DNA of 64,000 bases from a virus. The translations under genes were made by a program, and so were the position numbers. Below, piece after piece: positions 14,072-25,778 of this stretch. Position 1 is the stretch's first letter. Every line of letters begins with the position of its first letter. The stretch covers positions 1 through 64,000 of the IMG/VR virus record IMGVR_UViG_3300030333_008459, one strand, 5' to 3'. Under the pieces are notes generated by a model. That model was not told where the DNA came from. It searched no databases and worked only from the letters and a program-made list of their open reading frames with translations.

Positions 14072-16501
14072 TTATGTGAATGAAACCTCTTTGTCAACTA
14101 TTTTTAGAGAAATTTTTTCTGCTTTGTTATTTTGCACTATAAACTTAGATAAAGGCACTTGAATCAAGGTTTTAACTAAATTTTTAATTTGTCTCGCGTG
14201 GCTATTTTTCTCTTTAATTTTATTGAAAATGTATTTTTTAATACTTGGATGGTATTTTATATGTATTTTTCTATCTACTAATCTTTCACTAATAAGATTA
14301 AGCTCCGTGCTAATTATTTTATTTAGATGGTTGTCTGATAACTTATTAAAATAAAGTATTTCGTCTAATCGAGCTAATAATTCGGGTCGTAAATGATTCT
14401 CTAAAGATTTTTTGTATAATTCAGAATCATTTTTATTCTCAGGAAGAAAACCAACACTGCGTTTAGATTTTTCATTATGACCTATATTGGAAGTCATAAC
14501 TATAATACTCCTGCTGAAATCAACATCTCTATTTAAGTTATCAGTAGCCTTTCCTTCGTCTAATATATGAAGAAGTAAATCTAGTATTTTAGGATCGCAC
14601 TTCTCTACTTCATCAAACAAAATTACACAATTAGGATTATTGCGAACAAATTCAGTTAATAAACCACCCTCTTCAAAGCCTACATATCCAGCATTAGCAC
14701 CAATAAGTTTAGAAACGCCAGTTTTGTCCTGATACTCGCTCATGTTTAACTGGATAAAAGACTTCTCGTTACCAAAAAAATACTTAGCTATTTTTTTAGC
14801 TGTGAAAGTTTTACCTACACTTGTGCCACCAATAAACAAGAAGTTAGATAAAGGTTTGCAAGGGTCATTTAGGCCAGCTTTAGCACAAGCTAAAGAATTA
14901 TGAATAGAAGATATTATATCTTCTTGTCCAAATATTTCGCTATTCATCTGTTTGGCAAAGTTTACAAATGAGGAGCTGTTTTTGGTTATTGTTTTGGCTG
15001 AAAGACCTGTTTTTTCAGTAAAAACTGCTATTATATCTTTTTGTCTAATTTTTTGCTTACGACCGTGAGGTTTCGTTATATCAGCCAATTCTTGCAAGTA
15101 TACTTTTAAAATTGTGGTGAATTTTTCCTCATCTAAATTCTTTTCGTCTCCGCTCTCTACTAAGAAATCACAAAGATCTTTTCTAGCATCAGACATTTTA
15201 GAAGAAATCTTGACGTATTTTATCTTAGTTCTAGCTCCAATTTGATCTATCAAATCAAAAGCTTTATCTGGAAATCTTTTGTTGCTTAAGAATTTGTGGC
15301 AAAAATCTAAAATAGTGTCAATATCCTCTTCTTTGTAATTAACGTGATGAAAATCTTCATAAAAAGGAAGAGCTTTCATGACAATTTCCTTAGTATCAGC
15401 TTTAGAAGGTTCATTAATAATGATTTTATCAAACCTTCTTTTCATGGCTGTGTCTTTCTCAAAAAACTTTTTATATTCTTGTGAAGTAGTGGCACCAATA
15501 CACTTAATATCCCCACGGGCTAATGCTGGTTTTAACATATTGGAAGCGTCAACAGCCCCCTCTGAATTACCAGCTCCTATTATCGTATGTATCTCATCAA
15601 AGAATAAAACCACCTTAGGGTCTTTCTCTGCTTCAGCTATTAAAGCCTTAAATCGCTCTTCAAATTCACCCCTATATTTAGTCCCAGCTACCATAGCGCT
15701 TATGTCTACCGCGCAAATTTGCATCATAGATAGATGAGGAGGCACTTGCTGAGTAACAATTTTTTGGGCCAAGCCTTCCACTACAGCAGTTTTACCTACG
15801 CCAGCTTCACCCACTAAAATAGCATTGCTTTTATTCTTTTTGGAAAGGATTTCTATTAATTCTGTGGTTTCTCGATCCCTACCTGTAATTTTAGCTGATT
15901 TCTTTTCGATAAACCTTTCATTAAGGTTTATACAAAATTGATCTAAATAACTTAAAGGAGCTTTTTCTTCTTCTCGGGAAAAAGAGCCTCTTTTCCCCTC
16001 TATCTGGAGAATTGTTTTGATTTGATCTGTGGGAGGTATGCTGGTTTCTAGCACATGTGTTTCAATAACATCTTTTATGTGGATAGGATCAATGCCTTCT
16101 GAACGCAAATGGTCTATAAACTCGCCGCCACTATCAATAGCTATATATAAAATATGCTCCACCCCGATAAAAAAACTATCAAAAGTATCTGAAAATTCTT
16201 TTGCTAGCAAAATTATTTCATTTATTTCTTGGTGCCATCCACCTTGACCTTTACTAGACTCAAAAGATTTCTCGTTTTTTATTGAGTAGTCTTTAAAAAT
16301 TTTAACAAATTTTTGAGAATCAAGGGGAACCCCGTAACCTTTAAGCTTTAAAATGCAGCTGTCGGATAGGTTCGATAAACAACCATAAATGAGATGTGGA
16401 GCAGAAACAAGAGAGTGACCGTTAGCTTCCGCAAATTTTTTAGCGTCTTTTAAACCTTTTTTCGCTTTAGGGGTGAGATTAAAATCAGTTAGGCCCATCA
16501 T
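14072..16501 (-). CDS. ClpA/ClpC-like double AAA+ unfoldase
   Basis: 809 residues. A Clp N-domain spans about 1-145. AAA+ module D1 has Walker A GEAGVGKT (231-238), pore loop KYRG (275-278), Walker B FFDEIH and arginine-finger region MKRRF (353-357). Module D2 has Walker A GGTSVGKT (558-565), pore loop GYVGFEEGG (605-613), Walker B LFDEVEK and sensor 1 TSN (670-672). There is no long ClpB-type middle domain. After sensor 1 comes KRSVGFLPE, at the place where ClpA, ClpX and ClpC carry the IGL/IGF/VGF tripeptide that docks on ClpP. It is therefore likely to unfold proteins, possibly feeding host ClpP. No ClpP gene is in the window. It lies directly after the polymerase gene. Confidence 0.9.
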   Translation of the reverse strand: MMGLTDFNLTPKAKKGLKDAKKFAEANGHSLVSAPHLIYGCLSNLSDSCILKLKGYGVPLDSQKFVKIFKDYSIKNEKSFESSKGQGGWHQEINEIILLAKEFSDTFDSFFIGVEHILYIAIDSGGEFIDHLRSEGIDPIHIKDVIETHVLETSIPPTDQIKTILQIEGKRGSFSREEEKAPLSYLDQFCINLNERFIEKKSAKITGRDRETTELIEILSKKNKSNAILVGEAGVGKTAVVEGLAQKIVTQQVPPHLSMMQICAVDISAMVAGTKYRGEFEERFKALIAEAEKDPKVVLFFDEIHTIIGAGNSEGAVDASNMLKPALARGDIKCIGATTSQEYKKFFEKDTAMKRRFDKIIINEPSKADTKEIVMKALPFYEDFHHVNYKEEDIDTILDFCHKFLSNKRFPDKAFDLIDQIGARTKIKYVKISSKMSDARKDLCDFLVESGDEKNLDEEKFTTILKVYLQELADITKPHGRKQKIRQKDIIAVFTEKTGLSAKTITKNSSSFVNFAKQMNSEIFGQEDIISSIHNSLACAKAGLNDPCKPLSNFLFIGGTSVGKTFTAKKIAKYFFGNEKSFIQLNMSEYQDKTGVSKLIGANAGYVGFEEGGLLTEFVRNNPNCVILFDEVEKCDPKILDLLLHILDEGKATDNLNRDVDFSRSIIVMTSNIGHNEKSKRSVGFLPENKNDSELYKKSLENHLRPELLARLDEILYFNKLSDNHLNKIISTELNLISERLVDRKIHIKYHPSIKKYIFNKIKEKNSHARQIKNLVKTLIQVPLSKFIVQNNKAEKISLKIVDKEVSFT

Positions 16502-16512
16502 AATTCTTTACA

Positions 16513-19068
16513 CTATTTAATTTCAGATAACTTCATGTAGATTTTATCCTTTAGAGGAAAAAGTTTGTCAACAAAAACAACATCGTCTCCTTTGGAGCCA
16601 TAAATGATAATTATATCTCCTTTAACTGGTAGTTTTTTACCTTCATCTAGGTAATCTGTAAGACGAGAAGCGCGATTGCTGTCCAGAAACAAAGCATTCA
16701 CATTGCCAACTTCATCTTGAATATCTAAACGAGCGTATTTGTTGCCATTTCTGCTAGTCCTTCTAATAATATCGGTGATAACACCTACAAATTTAACATT
16801 AGCTCTCTCTGCTAGATCGCGGACAACAGAAGAGGAGTGGAAATCGTCTTCGTAACTGAAAACCTCTCTTATGTTGAATGAGTAGCTATATCCTAGTAAT
16901 TTTTCCTCAAAATACCAATTAGAGTATTTAATGTGTTTGGAGTTCATTTCGTATATCTCTTTGTAAGGTGAGAACTTTTTACGAAATGTCTCAAAACGCC
17001 TATCTGTAAACATCTGGCGGTTGTCATCGCCTACCATTTTATCTTTGCGAGTTTCATGGATCGCTGTGATAATATCATAATTATATTTATCTCCTAAGGC
17101 GATCAAGTTTCTCTTTTCTCGATCAGTGAGAATGTTGAAGGTCTGAGCTTCAAGAACTAATCGGCATCTGTTGCTGTGGACAAAAGAATCGAGTAAACCA
17201 GCTTGGATAAGAGCTGATAAGATACCTATATTAAGCCCAGCTTGTTTTGCAGACAGGAAGACTTCATATTTGTTCGCAAATGAATCCTCTCTAAATTCTA
17301 ACAACGACTCTAAAACCTTAGTAGAAACCCCTTTAATTGAGTTAAGACCATATCTAATGTTTTCACCCTCAATTTTAAAGTCAATGTCAGACTTGTTGAG
17401 ATCGGGCGGCAAAAGTTTTATGCCGAAATCCCCTAGTTCTTGAGTAATCTTAGCTATTTCTTCGTGAGAATTAGGTTCATACTTTGTATATTTTAAAAGA
17501 CTTAAAAAGAACTCTTTAGGGTGGTTAAATTTAAGATATACAGTGCAAGCTGCCAGATAAGCATAACTAATTGAGTGTGACTTGTTGAAAGAGTAGTTAG
17601 CAGAGTCTTCAGCTACGCTCCACAAGACATCTCCGATGGCAGGATCGAGATTGTTTTGTTGTATTTTTTCTTCGATCTTAGCTTTCCACGCTGGCATCTG
17701 ATCCACCTTCTTCTTCCCTACGATACGCCGTAACTGCTCCGATTCATCAAGGCTGAAGCCTACTTTAACAGCCATTTTCATGAGCTGTTCCTGATACAAG
17801 GGGATACCGCCTGTATAACTTAAAATATCATCAAAAAATTCATGAACCGACTGAGATTCCCCTGTTCTGACATATTCTGCGTATCTATCCTTAAAGTCTA
17901 AAGCTCCAGGTCTAGCAATAGCGACAACAGCAGAAAGCTGCTCCAGATCCCGTGGAGCTATTTGCTGACACACCTTGAAGTTGGTATCTGCTTCGATCTG
18001 GAAAAGCCCCTGTGGAGAGCGTAGACAAGAGAGGGCTGCGTATATGGAAGGGTCATGAGGATCTATCTCAGAGGCTTCTATACCTATCTGCTTACAAACA
18101 TCATGCACTACAGATAAAGTCCTCAAACCAAGAATATCAAACTTAACGCTTAGACTCGCCACATCATTCATGTCATAGCCAGAAACCAATGCCCCATCAT
18201 TTGTAGTTTGGAGTGGCATAATATCGTCTAAATCATAATAAGAGATACAAATACCAGAAGGGTGAACTCCTGTGTTTTTATTTAACCCTTGAAGTTTTTT
18301 AGCTATGCGAAAAGCTTTAGAGTGCTTATCTGCATAAGCCTTGAAGGTTTCGCTCTCTTCATATGCATCATCAAGTTTAGCTACGATCCCAAAGTGTTTC
18401 GGGATTGTATCACTAATTTGGTTTACTTCTGCTTCGCTTAAATCTTCTACTATCTTACCGCACTCTTTCATGCAGAGCTTACTGCTCAAAGTATTAAGAG
18501 TCAGAATTTTAGAAGTGCGTCCTTCGAACTTTTTCTCGATGTAGGCAATCACCTCGGCACGACGATCATAAGAGATATCGTTATCAACATCAGCTAGCAA
18601 GCTACCATCAAGATAAATTTCTCCATTATGTTCTATTTTTTTGGCCCTGCTTTTAGAGACAAATCTTTCGAAGAAAAGATCATACTCAATGGGATCAATG
18701 TTAGTGACCCCGATTACATAAAGAACCAGAGAACCTGCCGCACTCCCCCGACCTGCGCCTGTCGGGATATCGTTTTCCTTACAATAGTTAAGAATATCCC
18801 AATTTAGAAGAATATAGTCTACAAACCCTAAATCTTGGAAAATTGTTAATTCTTCTTTTATTCTTTCATAATAAGTTTGAGCGTTATCAAATTTATCAAT
18901 CCCCTTCTCTTGGACTTTTTTGTAGCAAAGCTTTCTTAGGAACTGGAAGTTATTCCCCAGGTCATTACAAGAAACTTCGTCATAATATTTTTTTTCTATT
19001 TGGATTTCTGGAAGCTTAACACCCACAGGAAAGGGAGTTTTGTAGCCCGTGTATTTGGTGGCATTCAT
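16513..19068 (-). CDS. dnaE: DNA polymerase III alpha, polymerase part (PHP domain absent)
   Basis: 851 residues; the likely replicative polymerase. GAGRGSAAGSL (104-114) and LFFERFVSKSR match the DnaE palm. The catalytic aspartates are present: D160 and D162 in ADVDND, and D311 in VKFDILGLRTL. The fingers region (VAIARPGALDF, IPLYQEQLMKMA, NKSHSISYAYLA) and the helix-hairpin-helix region follow, then a C-terminal OB fold (KFVGVITDIIRRTSRNG). E. coli DnaE has its first catalytic Asp at 401, so about 240 N-terminal residues are missing here. They correspond to the separate PHP gene at 19678-20448. An exonuclease gene lies between the two. All overlap or nearly touch, implying one operon. Confidence 0.9.
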   Translation of the reverse strand: MNATKYTGYKTPFPVGVKLPEIQIEKKYYDEVSCNDLGNNFQFLRKLCYKKVQEKGIDKFDNAQTYYERIKEELTIFQDLGFVDYILLNWDILNYCKENDIPTGAGRGSAAGSLVLYVIGVTNIDPIEYDLFFERFVSKSRAKKIEHNGEIYLDGSLLADVDNDISYDRRAEVIAYIEKKFEGRTSKILTLNTLSSKLCMKECGKIVEDLSEAEVNQISDTIPKHFGIVAKLDDAYEESETFKAYADKHSKAFRIAKKLQGLNKNTGVHPSGICISYYDLDDIMPLQTTNDGALVSGYDMNDVASLSVKFDILGLRTLSVVHDVCKQIGIEASEIDPHDPSIYAALSCLRSPQGLFQIEADTNFKVCQQIAPRDLEQLSAVVAIARPGALDFKDRYAEYVRTGESQSVHEFFDDILSYTGGIPLYQEQLMKMAVKVGFSLDESEQLRRIVGKKKVDQMPAWKAKIEEKIQQNNLDPAIGDVLWSVAEDSANYSFNKSHSISYAYLAACTVYLKFNHPKEFFLSLLKYTKYEPNSHEEIAKITQELGDFGIKLLPPDLNKSDIDFKIEGENIRYGLNSIKGVSTKVLESLLEFREDSFANKYEVFLSAKQAGLNIGILSALIQAGLLDSFVHSNRCRLVLEAQTFNILTDREKRNLIALGDKYNYDIITAIHETRKDKMVGDDNRQMFTDRRFETFRKKFSPYKEIYEMNSKHIKYSNWYFEEKLLGYSYSFNIREVFSYEDDFHSSSVVRDLAERANVKFVGVITDIIRRTSRNGNKYARLDIQDEVGNVNALFLDSNRASRLTDYLDEGKKLPVKGDIIIIYGSKGDDVVFVDKLFPLKDKIYMKLSEIK

Positions 19069-19697
19069 ATATCCAATTCAAAAAGTTGTTTACGGAAAAA
19101 TTTAAAATTCATTTCAATATCATAAAGGGCATCATGAAGTCTCTTGGGATCATGAGGTATATTATATTTCTTCAAAAGAAACCCTTGGGATGTTTTTAAA
19201 CCCCTCTCTCTATAATTCAGCAATCTATACTGCCAACTTAGAAAGTCTTTTTTATCCACAGGAATTTGCTTCGCAATGGCAACAGCTAAAGCTCTGGTGT
19301 CAATCATTCTAGGTAAGTAACAATATGTAGATGGTAGATTTATCAACTTCCTCCATACATTAAGCATATAGACATCAAATCCCAGCACATTATGTCCGAC
19401 TAGAAAGGTATTTGGATCATAAAAATCTTCAGCAAAAACATCCCATACTTCTTTAGGCGATTGACATTTCTTTTCATACTGTTTCTGAGAAAAACCAGTA
19501 ATCCTTGCAGCCTCTTCAGAAATATTTAAATCAGGCCACTCAATGTATAAATCTCTCTTTTTTATAACCCTATCCCCTTCTGCGACCAACCAAGCAACTT
19601 GCCAAGGTCTAGAAGAAACTAGGTTCAGTCCCTCAGTCTCCGTATCAAAAACAAGATACTTTTGTTTTTTATCAAATCTAAGCAGGGGTTCGGTCAT
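19065..19697 (-). CDS. DnaQ-like 3'-5' exonuclease (proofreading)
   Basis: 210 residues of the DEDDh exonuclease family, like DNA polymerase III epsilon. Motif I is FDTETEGL (about 17-24), motif II VGHNVLGFDVYML (98-110), and motif III HDALYDIEMNF near the C-terminus with the DEDDh histidine. It probably proofreads for the split polymerase, since its gene sits between the PHP gene (20-base overlap) and the polymerase gene (4-base overlap). The order PHP, exonuclease, polymerase recalls the domain order of PolC, although the polymerase itself is DnaE-like. Confidence 0.9.
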   Translation of the reverse strand: MTEPLLRFDKKQKYLVFDTETEGLNLVSSRPWQVAWLVAEGDRVIKKRDLYIEWPDLNISEEAARITGFSQKQYEKKCQSPKEVWDVFAEDFYDPNTFLVGHNVLGFDVYMLNVWRKLINLPSTYCYLPRMIDTRALAVAIAKQIPVDKKDFLSWQYRLLNYRERGLKTSQGFLLKKYNIPHDPKRLHDALYDIEMNFKFFRKQLFELDI

Positions 19698-20448
19698 AGT
19701 TTAAATGTTTTTTCTCTAGGTAAGACTCAAAGCAAAACTCTGCGCTACCAAAGTGATTCAAGTTTGGGTTGCTCAATGTGGCGGCTTTGCCAAAATTTCG
19801 ATTACACAAAATCTTGTAGGTTTGCAGGGCTTCTGCGTCTTCTCTGTTTTTGTATAAAATTGTTTTTACTGACTTAACAGGTCTCATCATGCTGCGAGCG
19901 AACTTTCTTACTTTTTCTGCTAAAATAGCATCAAACGGCAGATTGTTACACTCTATCCAAAATGTCGGCAATACCTTATGAAAATCAGGTAAGCACTTCT
20001 TCATGTGAAAGTTATTATTAAATATAAAAGAATCATAAAAAGGTATCACAAGCTCCAAATTCTCATCAAGCAATGAGTTCAGAAAACCGAAATCTACTTT
20101 ACCAGTCTCGGTATGAGCAAAAGAATAAATCCTGTAAAGAAGGCGACAGCCTTTGTCGTTATTAGCAAAGATTATAATCTTATGATCTGAATCATCGTCA
20201 TCATAAATACCGTTACAGCAGGTTATCCTTAACCCAAACACAAGGTTCATCCCAGCCTCTTTACAACGATTGTGGGCCGTCACAAAACCCGTCATAGAAT
20301 CTTCGACTAACACTAAAGATTTAATCGAATTCTCCTTGCAGATTTCTATGATACTATCTGCACCTCCCTCGGATGATTCTTCGTCAAGAGTTAGGATACT
20401 CTTTCCTATAGAGTAGGTTGACTTAAATACTGGAGTCATCACCAGCAT
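19678..20448 (-). CDS. Stand-alone PHP domain of DNA polymerase III alpha
   Basis: 256 residues that line up with the N-terminal PHP domain of DnaE. SIIEICKENSIKSLVLVEDS fits 'l...a...gm.alaltD', CKEAGMNLVFGLRI fits 'c..aGikpi.G.e', and IIIFANNDKGCRLLYRIYS fits 'l.lLa.n..Gy.nL..l.s'. The metal-binding residues of active PHP domains (HxH near the N-terminus, DH after the second strand) are absent: the start reads FKSTYSIG and the second site reads VEDS. The domain is therefore probably structural, holding the polymerase or the exonuclease. The product ends where the polymerase gene product begins in DnaE terms. Confidence 0.75.
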   Translation of the reverse strand: MLVMTPVFKSTYSIGKSILTLDEESSEGGADSIIEICKENSIKSLVLVEDSMTGFVTAHNRCKEAGMNLVFGLRITCCNGIYDDDDSDHKIIIFANNDKGCRLLYRIYSFAHTETGKVDFGFLNSLLDENLELVIPFYDSFIFNNNFHMKKCLPDFHKVLPTFWIECNNLPFDAILAEKVRKFARSMMRPVKSVKTILYKNREDAEALQTYKILCNRNFGKAATLSNPNLNHFGSAEFCFESYLEKKHLNYDRTPA

Positions 20449-20470: not shown

Positions 20471-21496
20471 TCAAGAGGAATGTGCGGGGCATCCCTGATA
20501 ATATTTCATTTCATAACTGCAACCCTCGGGAACTAAATCCTCAGAAAATTCATCTTCGAAATAAGAGGTGATAAATTTTCCCTCTGCGTTGGTAACTTCA
20601 TAATAAAAGAAATCAAACTTCATGGGGCAATGCCACTTCGGATTGCCGTCTATTTTTAATTCTCCTTTTTTTGTGGCGAATCCACATAGAAGTTTGCCGC
20701 TAAACGAATTATCTTTCGGGAAACCTTGATGAGCGGCATAGTTTTTCTGGGCATCTTTTTCTGAAAAGTTATCTAAATATTTTTGTATTTCAGACAACTG
20801 CATTTCAAATCCTTTTAACTCATCCTCGTCAAGAGGTTTCATACGCACAACGCCTGACTTTTTTGCATCAGGGTCGAGATCAAACTTCAAAAACAAGAAC
20901 TCGCTAACCCTCTCAGAATATTCGGGAAATAAATTTTTTACCGCAAGGCTATACATAAGATCTTGCAGATTATCGGTTTGATCTTTTCCCTTGAAGACTT
21001 CTTTGCTTGTTTTGAAGTCTCTAATTATAGCAAACTTTTTTCTCTTATATAAAAATAATTTGTCTATAAATCCTCTAATTTTATATTTTATGTCTCCGTC
21101 ATTTTTTACAATGTCGAAGTCTTTTTCTGAGTATTCTTCTGTTGGGTTTCCTAAGTCTGTCCCAAAAAAATCATAAGACAGACCATTGAAAATCATGTCT
21201 TTCATCATATCCACATTATCACAATCATCTATTCCCTCTCTGATTGCGTGTTTAAGGATTAATCTTTTAATAGACGGAACAGAAAATACATCTTGGGTTT
21301 TTAATATTTTATTATAATATTTTTTTCTACCCTTAAGACCCAAAACTTCAAAAACCAAGTGACATATCGAGCCTCTTTTGGCCCCTTCGTTGCTTTTATC
21401 AGGAAGCTTTAGTTTATACTTGCACCAGTAAAGCCATGAACACGATTGTGCCGTTTTTATTCTGCTTGCAGACAACGGCGTTTCGAGTTCAGGCAT
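20471..21496 (-). CDS. RecB/Cas4/AddB-type PD-(D/E)XK nuclease
   Basis: 341 residues. The start LSASRIKTAQSCSWLYWCKY is the typical opening of RecB-family nucleases. GSICHLVFEVL carries the motif-I histidine, IRGFIDKLFLYKRKKFAIIR with DFKTSK after it gives the D...DxK active site, and LQDLMYSLAV is the QxxxY-like helix. One or two cysteines near the N-terminus and several near the C-terminus (LLCGF, WHCPMKF, GCSYEMKYYQGC) could bind an iron-sulfur cluster as in Cas4 and AddB. It probably processes DNA ends for replication or recombination. Located between the primase and PHP genes. Confidence 0.75.
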   Translation of the reverse strand: MPELETPLSASRIKTAQSCSWLYWCKYKLKLPDKSNEGAKRGSICHLVFEVLGLKGRKKYYNKILKTQDVFSVPSIKRLILKHAIREGIDDCDNVDMMKDMIFNGLSYDFFGTDLGNPTEEYSEKDFDIVKNDGDIKYKIRGFIDKLFLYKRKKFAIIRDFKTSKEVFKGKDQTDNLQDLMYSLAVKNLFPEYSERVSEFLFLKFDLDPDAKKSGVVRMKPLDEDELKGFEMQLSEIQKYLDNFSEKDAQKNYAAHQGFPKDNSFSGKLLCGFATKKGELKIDGNPKWHCPMKFDFFYYEVTNAEGKFITSYFEDEFSEDLVPEGCSYEMKYYQGCPAHSS

Positions 21497-22553
21497 CGCT
21501 AAGTATTAAGGCTGTTTTAATTTCTTTCTTAGTGAAGTAAGATGGGTTGTTTTGAACAAAGTCTAAGATATATTTTATTTGTGCAGCCTTATCTATATCT
21601 TTACTTAGCCAATTACTGAAATCATAACCATCTAAATGAGCGTCACCAAAATCATTATATGGCTTGGGAGGGAATTTTACAGTAAGCGCATCTAAATCAA
21701 AATATCTAGAGAGCTTTATGAAGCTTTTTATCCCCGCTATGAACCCTCTATTTTGCCCACTATTTTCATCATTATTTGTTGAAATGCATATATGACGAAT
21801 AGAGTAGCCACAAAGATAATTGACAATGTTATTATTAACAGATAGGCCAAAAATGACCAAAACGTTTTTAATACCTTGTTCATAAAGAGATAACGCATCA
21901 CCAATACTTTCTACTAAAATAACTTCTTGTTTTGTTTTGATTTCCGCATCAACACCAGTGTTTGTGTTAAAAGCGGGATAAACCCAATTGTTGCGTCTTC
22001 CTATATGCTTCCATTTTGGATAATCATTATCTGAATCAACCTTTCTACCAGAAAAGCCAATTATTTGATTATGCTCATTAAAAATAGGGAAAACCATTCT
22101 CCTATACATTTTACCGACACCCGCCAAGCCAGATTGAAATGCTTCTTGTGTTTGTTTGGAAATTTTTCTCTGCTCGTAAAAGTGATAATTCGGGAAAAGC
22201 CTTTCAAGAGAGGAATCTGGATAAATTTTTTCCATTTCTATTGTTTCTTTTGCAGAATAAAGCTCAGAGGTTTCTAGTGTGCGCCCCCCAAGCAACTCCT
22301 TTATTTGTTTGTCGTCTTTGACAGTTAATCGGACCAAAGCCTCAAAAGGCATAGAGCCTTTGTTTTGAACAAAGTCCATCCAAACCCCTGTGTTTTTGTA
22401 TACTTTTACAGCGGTTTTATTGTCTCCGTCTCGATATAAAGCCTGTGTCCTCCAGTGATCTCCACAATCAATCAGCTGATAACCGATTGACTCTAGTATA
22501 CCTTGGAAGTCTTCAGAACTGATCGAAGTCAGGGATTTCTTCTTGGACTCCAT
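21489..22553 (-). CDS. DnaG-like primase (TOPRIM)
   Basis: 354 residues. The N-terminal part contains a degenerate CHC2-like region (DHWRTQALYRDGDNKTAVKV) without the zinc-binding cysteines. Then come the primase core (MYRRMVFPIFNEHNQIIGFS, GRKV) and the TOPRIM domain with EVILVESIGDALSLYEQG (the 'vvEG..D' glutamate) and ICISTNNDENSGQNRG (the DxD part). It makes RNA primers for the helicase-polymerase complex. The start is embedded 41 bases inside the helicase gene, so the two are co-translated. Confidence 0.8.
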   Translation of the reverse strand: MESKKKSLTSISSEDFQGILESIGYQLIDCGDHWRTQALYRDGDNKTAVKVYKNTGVWMDFVQNKGSMPFEALVRLTVKDDKQIKELLGGRTLETSELYSAKETIEMEKIYPDSSLERLFPNYHFYEQRKISKQTQEAFQSGLAGVGKMYRRMVFPIFNEHNQIIGFSGRKVDSDNDYPKWKHIGRRNNWVYPAFNTNTGVDAEIKTKQEVILVESIGDALSLYEQGIKNVLVIFGLSVNNNIVNYLCGYSIRHICISTNNDENSGQNRGFIAGIKSFIKLSRYFDLDALTVKFPPKPYNDFGDAHLDGYDFSNWLSKDIDKAAQIKYILDFVQNNPSYFTKKEIKTALILSDA

Positions 22554-24030
22554 TGCTATCTAATTCTTCTTCACCATCAAGCATTCTTGCTATATCTCTT
22601 AAGTCTCCTCTTTCTGAGATATTAAAGTTATTAAAATCTAGGTTAATTGAGTTTTTACGAAGTGAGTCGCCAATCCTCACTGGCTCAACTGCGCCAGCTA
22701 TGTCACTGCCCAAATGACGAGCCTTGACGTTTATTAGTTTGTGACTACCAAACCTGCCCCCCTCTGTCTCCATCTCATCAGCAGTCTTGTTGCGTAAGAT
22801 AAACATATGAGAGCAGAACTGTGTGATTCTATCAGAAAGGGAAACAATAGACTCATCATCTACAATGTTTTGAGAGTTCCTATTATTGGTTATGCCATAC
22901 CTGTTAGACTGCACTGAAGTGATCATGGGTATGACAGGATTCCCGTCATGCAAAATCTCTTTTTGAACACACTTTTTAAACTTGTCCACCATCTCACCGA
23001 CAACCTGCCACTCTGATTTGTTAGCGATGTTTTCAGATGTGGTTTTTATATAATCAAAAGAAAATACCATAGGGTTGCCGCGACCGACCTTAGAATAGTA
23101 AAATCTCTTCAGGGTATTAACCATAGAGTCCACATCCATGCCCCCTACATTGTAATAATAGAATTTTAAATTCTTAACCTTAGGCCAAACTGCTCTGACC
23201 TTTTTAACAACATCCTCTCCTGCTCGTCTCCATTTACCACTCTCAAGAAGATGCATTGAAACACCAGACAGGGCAGCGCATTGACGCATAATAAGCTCCT
23301 CTTTGCTCATTTCACCATTGTCGAAGTGAAGAACAGGGACATCATACTGAAGACTAACCTTGGTAGAGTAATCCATGCAAAATTGAGTTTTACCCACACC
23401 AGACCTAGCTACAATAACAGTTATATTACCAGCACGTAGAAGAGAGCCGTAAATCTCATTAACCTTTGGGTGCGGACCCATCATACCAAACTCTGTGAGC
23501 GGGTTATTACCCCGATCCTCTACAAGAGCCTCCATTTCCTCATATATGTTCTCTGGGACATCGTTGCCCATTTCATAAAGGTTGATGCGAGAATTATATG
23601 CGCTATCTGCTGCTTCAATTATGGCGCGATAAGATGCCTCAGGAGGCATGTTTTTCATCTTTTTGCCGATGTCTTGAGAGGACTCTAGAATTTCGCGTCT
23701 TATTGAGTATTTTTTTAGCTCCTTAGCTGTTTTAAGGGTATTGCCCTTCGGCACTTTCCTGAGAGCTAAAGATTTAATGTAGTCGGAGGGATTTAAATTG
23801 TCTTCGAAAGACAACCCAACCTCGTTTACCCTTTGAGCAATGATAACCTCATCTATTTCGTCTCCAGCATCAATAGCTTGTTTAATAACACGAAAAATAG
23901 CAGAATGCAGAGAGCTTTGTTTGGAGTAAAAATCAGAGTTACCTATAAAATTAGATATCTCCGCTAAAGAATCAGGCTCTTTAATTAGACCCGCTAAAAG
24001 CTGCTTTTCTAATTCAAAATTATAAATCAT
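22513..24030 (-). CDS. DnaB-like replicative helicase
   Basis: 505 residues. The N-terminal helical domain starts FELEKQLLAGLIKEPDSL, which is the typical DnaB opening. The RecA-like motor has Walker A ARSGVGKT (208-215), H1a-type LHFDNGEMSKEEL, Walker B VFSFDYIKT and a late ITSVQSNR element resembling 'visQlnR'. It unwinds DNA at the fork in 5'-3' direction as a hexamer and is expected to bind the primase. First large gene of the replication part after the recombinase; overlaps its neighbours by 11 and 41 bases. Confidence 0.9.
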   Translation of the reverse strand: MIYNFELEKQLLAGLIKEPDSLAEISNFIGNSDFYSKQSSLHSAIFRVIKQAIDAGDEIDEVIIAQRVNEVGLSFEDNLNPSDYIKSLALRKVPKGNTLKTAKELKKYSIRREILESSQDIGKKMKNMPPEASYRAIIEAADSAYNSRINLYEMGNDVPENIYEEMEALVEDRGNNPLTEFGMMGPHPKVNEIYGSLLRAGNITVIVARSGVGKTQFCMDYSTKVSLQYDVPVLHFDNGEMSKEELIMRQCAALSGVSMHLLESGKWRRAGEDVVKKVRAVWPKVKNLKFYYYNVGGMDVDSMVNTLKRFYYSKVGRGNPMVFSFDYIKTTSENIANKSEWQVVGEMVDKFKKCVQKEILHDGNPVIPMITSVQSNRYGITNNRNSQNIVDDESIVSLSDRITQFCSHMFILRNKTADEMETEGGRFGSHKLINVKARHLGSDIAGAVEPVRIGDSLRKNSINLDFNNFNISERGDLRDIARMLDGEEELDSNGVQEEIPDFDQF

Positions 24031-24262
24031 TTTCTCTAGGATCTTGGGCGCTAGCTAAGTGGTTTTCAAGGGCTTTCGTCAAAGCAAATTCTGTCATGCC
24101 GCAATCAAATTTGCAATATATTAATGGTCTGCCGCTCTCAGATGAGACAGCCATGATTACACCTTTATATTTATCTACCCCGCCTGAAAGGTCATATATT
24201 TTCTCAACCAGTTCAGATGGTATGCAAAACTCAGAGCCATCATTGTTATCTTCTATATTCAT
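24020..24262 (-). CDS. Small acidic protein, unknown function
   Basis: 80 residues, no family recognised. It contains IPSELVEKIYDLSGGVDKYK and a compact alpha/beta-looking core (GVIMAVSSESGRPLIYCKFD). It sits between the nuclease and the helicase genes with overlaps on both sides, so it is probably part of the replication operon. A helper of helicase loading is conceivable, but nothing shows it. Confidence 0.6.
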   Translation of the reverse strand: MNIEDNNDGSEFCIPSELVEKIYDLSGGVDKYKGVIMAVSSESGRPLIYCKFDCGMTEFALTKALENHLASAQDPRENDL

Positions 24263-24666
24263 AGATAAATATCTTGTTTTTTAAAAAGAGAAGCGTGTAT
24301 TTCATCCTGAGGATACACCTCTGCTAGCTTTATATTATTAGCTTTACAGAAGTCAAGCTTCTTTTCGTCTCTTTTAAGTTGGTCAGCGTATTTAAAGCGA
24401 TTCTTGTGAAAGAATTTAACAAATTTAGTATGTTGCGCTCCTTGCACTTCCACTGCTATTTTTTTGTTAGCATTGTAAAAATCTAAAGTAAGACGAGTCC
24501 CGACCACTCTAAACTCTTCGAAGACGATATCGTTCTTCCAATACTTTTTTAAGAATTTTTTTACTTGAGTTTGAAACTTGCTGCGACTTGGTTTGCTCCA
24601 GTCAATTAAATACTTTTTGGCGTTCTTGAGGTTCCTCTGTTTGCCATATGAGTCAACAAACTTCAT
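24259..24666 (-). CDS. Small PD-(D/E)XK nuclease-fold protein (DUF559/Vsr-like)
   Basis: 135 residues. Residues about 50-110 have the restriction-endonuclease-like core: FEEFRVVGTRLTLDFYNANK gives the Asp, KIAVEVQGAQHTKF the E-x-Q variant of the E-x-K motif, and FRYADQ-type helix and LKRDEKKLDFCKANN the following helices. It resembles DUF559/Vsr-like nicking or repair enzymes and small phage endonucleases. It lies between recombinase and helicase genes, so a role in DNA repair, recombination or host-DNA cleavage is likely. Confidence 0.7.
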   Translation of the reverse strand: MKFVDSYGKQRNLKNAKKYLIDWSKPSRSKFQTQVKKFLKKYWKNDIVFEEFRVVGTRLTLDFYNANKKIAVEVQGAQHTKFVKFFHKNRFKYADQLKRDEKKLDFCKANNIKLAEVYPQDEIHASLFKKQDIYL

Positions 24667-25778
24667 CCTGTAACTTCTTCTTTAAAATAATCAAAAAGGA
24701 AGTTAGATAGTTTTTTATCTCCCTCTATGTGAGAAAATAGTTTTGGCTCTCCTTGTATTTTTTCTGGGAACTCTAAGTCGTTTTCAGATAAAATCTCTAA
24801 AAATTCTTGCGTTGGATAAAGCCACGCGCCCTTCTTCGTGAGGAAGTCCCAACCCCAAAGCATTCCAACTATTTCTTTCTCTCTCCAAATAGAGTTGCCC
24901 CCTTTTCTGCCATAGCGGATAGGGTAAGAGATCGTGCTATTAGTTTTTTCATTAGGTGATTTTTTAATAGTAACCTTAGCGTGATGGCCAATAATCGGAT
25001 TTTTCTTCTCGTCAACCATTTTTAAAGAGGGGTTTTGCAGAATTAAATCTCCTTTAAATCTAGGTTCAAATTCTATAATACTGTTAGCGAAATGCAGCAA
25101 AGCATTACCGCCTGTAGCGGTAGTTTGACGAACAGGAGCTTTCGAGTAAGGGTCGATTTTTATGTCTGCACGGACTTGGCTAATAAAAATAGCCATATGA
25201 CCACGCTTACCAAGAGCTACGCTTGTTTTCTTGCAAAAATCAGAAGCCACCACAGCCCCTCCCGCTACCTTTGTAGCGTCTTCGAAACCTTTGGTGAAAT
25301 CGTCCCTCCTAATCAGGCCATCCATAGAGTCCACAATAAAGCAATATCTCTGCTTATCGGGGTTATCTGTGATTAACGTCCTAACTAAACCCATAGCAGA
25401 CTCATAGATGTTTGTCTCGTAAACAAAACAGGTGCCATCACTCCAACTGTCTTTATCAAATGCAAAGGTGACACCAGATCTCTCTTGCATCTCTGGCCCG
25501 AGCCTTCCTTCCGCTTTAATATAAATACCTCTTGAATTAGGGATGGTCGCTAGAAAGTTTTTCATAACCTCTAACGACTCAGAGGTTTTGCCTCCCTCGT
25601 TGATCCCTGTAAAACGATGTAGCCCAGGAGAGAAGCCTCCCCCTAGATAGGCATCAAACTGTAAAGATCCACTGGTTACCTTGTAGTCAATGGTTTCTTC
25701 GAAGTTGTAATGATCTTTTTTGTTTTCCTTAAGATAGCTCTCAAGAATATCCTCCGATTTACGTTGTTCTTCACTCAT
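24663..25778 (-). CDS. RecA/UvsX-like recombinase
   Basis: 371 residues. The RecA-type core starts at SGSLQFDAYLGGGFSPGLH, with Walker A GINEGGKT (58-65), Walker B CFIVDSMDGL and the strand AIFISQVRADI with the expected Gln. The region FKGDLILQNPSL and IIGHHAKVTIKKSPNEK (followed by KTN) matches the 'g..v.akv.KNK' end of RecA/UvsX. It probably drives homologous recombination and recombination-dependent replication. Overlaps both neighbours (ATGA type). Confidence 0.85.
   Translation of the reverse strand: MSEEQRKSEDILESYLKENKKDHYNFEETIDYKVTSGSLQFDAYLGGGFSPGLHRFTGINEGGKTSESLEVMKNFLATIPNSRGIYIKAEGRLGPEMQERSGVTFAFDKDSWSDGTCFVYETNIYESAMGLVRTLITDNPDKQRYCFIVDSMDGLIRRDDFTKGFEDATKVAGGAVVASDFCKKTSVALGKRGHMAIFISQVRADIKIDPYSKAPVRQTTATGGNALLHFANSIIEFEPRFKGDLILQNPSLKMVDEKKNPIIGHHAKVTIKKSPNEKTNSTISYPIRYGRKGGNSIWREKEIVGMLWGWDFLTKKGAWLYPTQEFLEILSENDLEFPEKIQGEPKLFSHIEGDKKLSNFLFDYFKEEVTG

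Follow-up and report, generated by a model that had tools for sequence, protein, structure and literature searches.

Can a C-family DNA polymerase work as three separate proteins? The question is raised by a stretch of 64,000 nucleotides (the window; positions 1 to 64,000 of IMGVR_UViG_3300030333_008459, a 78,499-bp IMG/VR virus record), in which an earlier note had placed the PHP domain, the exonuclease and the polymerase of DNA polymerase III alpha on three neighbouring genes. We observed that the three open reading frames (ORFs) are exactly as described there, and that the same layout recurs in about 150 distinct related sequences. The three proteins probably form one replicase core that is assembled in trans, with the PHP protein acting as a non-catalytic structural subunit.

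The polymerase, PHP and exonuclease proteins

The polymerase gene (16513..19068, minus strand) encodes an 851-residue DnaE-type core without a PHP domain. The protein matched the Pfam families PF07733 (2e-61), finger domain (PF17657, 8e-29) and HHH_6 (PF14579, 6e-18), and more weakly the C-terminal OB fold (PF01336, 4e-4). It also covered positions 325-1054 of the 1190-position profile phrog_405 at 1.6e-159. When aligned with E. coli DnaE (dnaE from NC_000913), D160 and D162 fell on D401 and D403, as had been claimed, and D311 on D555; all three are invariant. The N-terminus corresponded to the linker that follows PHP in E. coli DnaE (about residue 265-270), and the C-terminus lies beyond the C-terminal OB fold. 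This alignment and the start of the phrog_405 match at position 325 agree with the proposal that the polymerase starts at the PHP/palm boundary. Relative to all other aligned sequences except Sundance, a 14-residue insertion was seen directly before the DxD motif. Foldseek matches of the AlphaFold2 model of the polymerase (pLDDT 86.7, pTM 0.83) ranged from 2e-41 to 3e-27 for DnaE of M. tuberculosis, Taq and E. coli, and those to PolC were no better than 2e-19. The three palm aspartates, and the presence of fingers, HhH and a C-terminal OB fold, are those of a DnaE-type C-family polymerase, but the PHP domain that DnaE usually carries on the polymerase chain is found here as a separate ORF.

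This PHP protein gene (19678..20448, minus strand) encodes 256 residues, and its product is a detached DnaE-type PHP domain. It matched positions 61-290 of phrog_405 (1.5e-12), adjoining the part covered by the polymerase. With PF02811 the window copy scored 25.8 bits against a cut-off of 26.4 (0.6 bits under the gathering score); 38 of the 48 PHP proteins of the clade matched this family (best 2.7e-10), and 42 of the 48 matched phrog_405. Profile-profile comparison (hhalign) with DnaE PHP domains gave a probability of 97.5 and an E-value of 6e-12 over 227 columns, and the span on E. coli DnaE (12-248) indicated that the PHP is complete and uninterrupted. The AlphaFold2 model (pLDDT 87.7) was searched with Foldseek, and the top 18 PDB matches were all DnaE PHP domains (those of E. 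coli, Taq and M. tuberculosis among them), followed by PolC and then, much lower, by RNase AM, a non-polymerase PHP. A tblastn search of the PHP protein against the phage collection gave no match even at E=1, and a hidden Markov model (HMM) built from the split-clade PHPs alone missed, at E<1e-3, most PHP domains of fused polymerases and of bacteria; hence, the PHP relationship rests on PHROG, Pfam, the profile-profile comparison and structure. A profile search against PDB sequences returned nothing beyond a weak match to the PHP of PolC (E 0.02). The search with PHP and DnaE profiles, set beforehand as the test of the PHP-like nature of this product, thus returned significant PHP similarity, both by HMM and by structure.

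The metal site of the PHP was found to be lost, as the earlier note had suspected. All nine metal-ligand positions are replaced in the window copy, which is not the pattern of a catalytic PHP, where the ligands follow the motif HHDHEH[C/H]DH (PMC12926913). The changes, in E. coli numbering by alignment, include H12 to K9, D19 to K16, D69 to R74, H83 to K90, D201 to T196 and R203 to L198. The residues K9, K16, R74, K90 and K195 are basic and are kept in nearly all of the 48 clade PHP proteins. Judging from their position, these residues may form a cluster that replaces the PHP metals.

The exonuclease gene (19065..19697, minus strand) lies between the other two, and the separate DEDDh 3'-5' exonuclease expected there was recovered. 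The 210-residue product matched RNase_T (8.4e-17) and the exonuclease subunit profile phrog_192 (6e-24), and the five DEDDh residues D18, E20, D108, H188 and D193 were all invariant in the alignment. Its closest solved sequences were the T. maritima PolC-type exonuclease, DnaQ and epsilon. The chain stops about 17 residues past the last active-site aspartate, with the conserved end FRKQLFELDI in the window. Since it stops so soon after the active-site helix, the protein has no C-terminal tail of the kind by which the E. coli-type epsilon binds PHP. The gene overlaps the PHP gene by 20 nt (19678..19697, minus strand), and its stop overlaps the polymerase start by 4 nt (ATGA; 19065..19068, minus strand), so that translation of the exonuclease and the polymerase is likely to be coupled.

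Conservation of the three-gene layout

Relatives were collected from IMG/VR scans, the window-clade polymerases being 54-92% identical to the query used. They form two sets of distinct polymerase sequences that have a few contigs in common, which is why the total is given as about 150. We observed that PHP, exonuclease and polymerase were separate genes, in that order and on one strand, in 95/95 relatives of the first set and in 58/58 of the second, and no fused PHP-polymerase was seen among these 95 + 58 distinct relatives, which have the upstream region. A further 19 relatives of the first set and 1 of the second were cut by contig ends, and hence were not counted. Even clade members with only 54-61% polymerase identity keep the three genes linked.

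The spacing of the genes is less constant. In 20 of the 95 relatives of the first set, the replicase genes are interrupted by an unrelated gene, 15 times between exonuclease and polymerase and 5 times between PHP and exonuclease (the latter two being adjacent in 90/95). Judged by eye, the genes inserted in this set include ones for FkbM-like methyltransferase, cupin-like and SET-like proteins. In the second, deeper set, the PHP gene is often 0.1-1.8 kb away from the exonuclease gene, while the exonuclease and polymerase genes still overlap. For the PHP gene, pN (nonsynonymous) was 0.12-0.27 against a saturated pS (synonymous) of about 0.8, with much the same values for the exonuclease. The PHP gene is under strong purifying selection.

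Two further observations were made on the relatives. One of them (L163, 5992-9780) carries a cis intein of roughly 385 residues in the polymerase, at the RRxVGKKK motif. Another close relative, contig JABXKB010000009.1, belongs to a metagenome-assembled genome (MAG) labelled Lokiarchaeota; it was considered as evidence of an archaeal host and rejected, since the contig shows the same phage gene order. In this MAG (JABXKB01; L166, L254, L258, L270), three DnaE-like contigs look like phage and include two split-DnaE types.

Probable assembly in trans and the competing explanations

As the three genes are invariantly linked, a three-subunit enzyme is the simplest reading. We propose that a DnaE gene was broken at the PHP/palm boundary in an ancestor of this uncultured clade of tailed phages, and the layout then retained; the DnaE-type C-family polymerase is now encoded by three overlapping genes. 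The PHP protein would most likely sit on the polymerase as it does in fused DnaE, but joined in trans, and would there support the polymerase and keep the exonuclease near the primer end, without catalysis. As the PHP has no metal site, proofreading would come from the exonuclease alone. In C-family polymerases, the loss of the PHP metal ligands accompanies the use of a separate exonuclease, as it does here. A literature search for a split PHP/polymerase or a free PHP subunit found none, although an earlier mention in a survey of viral replicases is possible; the split is real and conserved, and apparently undescribed. Its detached PHP would allow the long-debated job of this domain to be tested by adding or omitting it. 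The polymerase could be reconstituted alone or together with the PHP, the exonuclease or both, with no domain surgery, and the contribution of the PHP would be measurable.

Some observations weigh against this assembly. The PHP proteins are 37-82% identical while the polymerases are 63-92% identical, and this faster evolution of the PHP is compatible with a looser role. The region of the clamp motif (QADMF in E. coli) is unconserved across the polymerases of the clade in the alignment, and a beta-clamp domain was looked for in the partial genome and none was found. In addition, as the exonuclease has no epsilon tail, any contact that it makes with the PHP must differ from that of E. coli.

The PHP could instead bind, stabilise or position the exonuclease only, as a proofreading accessory, with the polymerase working without it. 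The 20-nt overlap of their genes in the window, their adjacency in most relatives of the first set and the excess of insertions on the polymerase side of the exonuclease gene would fit such a role. However, the deeper set shows the reverse, since there it is the PHP gene that lies apart while exonuclease and polymerase overlap, and in all the C-family structures known to us the PHP is packed on the polymerase. We consider an accessory of this type unlikely. The PHP could also have left the replicase for another job; its former metal pocket might, for instance, bind a phosphate ligand or nucleic acid. The five conserved basic positions at or beside the old metal site, along with the faster evolution of the PHP than of the polymerase, speak for this, but the PHP is never apart from the exonuclease-polymerase pair in about 150 sequences, and by Foldseek its fold fits DnaE PHP and not the free-standing PHP enzymes. 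A departure from the replicase is thus quite unlikely.

A trans-splicing intein or intron would make the mature protein an ordinary fused DnaE. Cyanobacterial DnaE is rebuilt through a split intein (mentioned in PMC3919608), and this precedent, the cis intein in the polymerase of L163 and the DnaE in pieces of Alicyclobacillus phage KKP_3916 speak for it. However, the PHP protein is almost wholly PHP, and the alignment has no intein segment at the PHP end or at the polymerase start. The overlapping genes also leave no space for an intron, the exonuclease gene intervenes, and in other clade members unrelated genes do so as well. Trans-splicing is refuted at the sequence level, and we give it only a very slight chance. 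For an error of sequencing or assembly, or a decaying pseudogene, nothing speaks except that the window PHP copy falls just under the Pfam cut-off, and a split by error, named beforehand as what would overturn the proposal, is excluded by the strong purifying selection and by the whole exonuclease gene that intervenes in about 150 independent sequences of the same layout, leaving it a negligible chance. As these relatives all have the genes separate, and some have other genes between them, read errors, fusion by frameshift and rejoining by an intein are excluded together.

The PHP, exonuclease and polymerase genes lie within a replication block, with primase and helicase on one side and a Clp-like ATPase on the other (all on the minus strand). 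The next gene downstream of the polymerase encodes a ClpA/ClpB-like AAA+ protein (14072..16501), and the next upstream of the PHP a PD-(D/E)XK nuclease (20471..21496); both are conserved in relatives. Beyond the nuclease, Pfam and PHROG matches identified a DnaG-like primase with Toprim (21489..22553), a DnaB-like replicative helicase (22513..24030) and a UvsX/RecA-like recombinase (24663..25778). The three-gene product is presumably the replicative polymerase of the phage. Between the helicase and recombinase genes, a small ORF (24259-24666) resembles HNH/intron-encoded nucleases, and farther along, a large block of this phage genome (26118-41345) encodes nucleotide-sugar epimerases and glycosyltransferases.

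Other split polymerases and known systems

Splitting is not unique to the window clade, since cluster R mycobacteriophages and a second uncultured phage clade also have a split DnaE. In cluster R (Send513, Papyrus and others), the PHP is likewise separate (gene 72, 311 residues) and the polymerase (gene 74, 770 residues) begins at the palm. Unlike the window, these phages retain most PHP metal ligands, have between PHP and polymerase a 128-residue unknown protein (phrog_17644) and no exonuclease, and form a separate lineage in the tree. As the cluster R split belongs to a separate lineage, detachment of the PHP arose at least twice. The separate PHP before a PHP-less DnaE was seen in Papyrus (L105:2638-6259) and 10 other records, and several GenBank records of cluster R label the PHP gene 'DNA polymerase III sliding clamp'.

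The second uncultured clade came to light in two MAG contigs, and about 30 viral contigs (L268:3985-8414, L269, L271-L300) were later found to belong to it. Here, too, a DEDDh exonuclease gene lies between the pieces, the order being PHP+palm (about 625 residues), exonuclease (about 230 residues) and fingers+HhH+OB (about 545 residues), and this layout is conserved down to 36-52% identity. Unlike in the window, the break is at palm/fingers, and the PHP is still fused to the palm with its metal ligands kept. As a replicative polymerase whose palm and fingers are different proteins, this one would be stranger still. We lean slightly towards a broader proposal: in the window clade, an obligate three-subunit C-family replicase with a free, metal-free PHP scaffold whose metal pocket is rebuilt with conserved basic residues and, more widely, uncultured phages that repeatedly split Pol III alpha at domain boundaries (PHP/palm in the window clade, palm/fingers in the second), with the exonuclease gene between the pieces in both clades.

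Other breaks were also noticed. In KKP_3916 (L093), DnaE is in at least 4 pieces with other ORFs between them, all annotated hypothetical, and the breaks are probably introns or homing genes. In L304 (4992-9441), DnaE is broken before the catalytic DxD, near the KKP_3916 break point, into ORFs of 404 and 670 residues.

In a careful tree, from which PolC sequences were excluded for their very long branches, the split polymerases of the window clade formed one clade (100/100) outside the bacterial DnaE sequences; the window polymerase did not branch inside the DnaE1, DnaE2 or DnaE3 groups. The window clade and the palm/fingers clade were sisters in a quick tree (94), but this support weakened to 80/52 in the careful one, and we do not claim it.

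DnaE normally has PHP and polymerase on one chain. The same is seen in the fused phage DnaE-like polymerases (phrog_405), which belong to the same family as the window polymerase and, at 26-30% identity, include its nearest annotated relatives: Brevibacillus phage Sundance, Streptomyces phages and Gordonia phage Stormageddon. The PHP is fused in the checked records of Sundance, SarahRose, RHEph10, Belfort, Stormageddon, PS1, phiK7B1, pCD1602_4, WFC, FBPa21, JayJay, Ldl1, BUCT082 and SA2, the exception among the annotated phage relatives checked being cluster R. The polymerases of Pseudomonas phage Y1 and of human-gut 'Bacteriophage sp.' records (MT83xxxx) first looked like fused phage relatives but were rejected, as they lie among bacterial DnaE1. 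Unverified 'phage' records with this placement are MT835501, OQ572403, MT836494, MT837297, MT835750 and MT836709 (L094-L099); such records are probably bacterial contamination and were not used as phage evidence.

PolC is a single chain with an N-terminal OB fold and with its exonuclease inserted into the PHP. The earlier note had likened the gene order to PolC, and PHP, exonuclease and polymerase do follow one another along the DNA in the same order. The likeness is, however, superficial, since the window differs from PolC on three counts: the genes are separate, the PHP is uninterrupted and the OB fold is C-terminal. The structure of the polymerase also matches PolC far more weakly (2e-19) than DnaE (2e-41). 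As the PHP is complete, the OB fold C-terminal and the fit of the model to DnaE far better, the gene order is no evidence of PolC ancestry.

The window polymerase shares the order of palm, fingers, HhH and C-terminal OB fold with bacterial DnaE, such as that of E. coli with its DnaQ. The three window proteins would function like a DnaE-epsilon core, the one defining trait of DnaE that they lack being a PHP on the polymerase chain. E. coli DnaE and epsilon likewise combine a degenerate PHP with a separate DEDDh exonuclease; in E. coli the role of the PHP is structural, and separate proofreading exonucleases are accompanied by variant PHP domains (PMC3666897). Epsilon binds the PHP of DnaE1 (PMC3919608). 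Compared with E. coli DnaE, the window PHP is a gene product of its own, and it is paired with an exonuclease that lacks the epsilon C-terminal tail.

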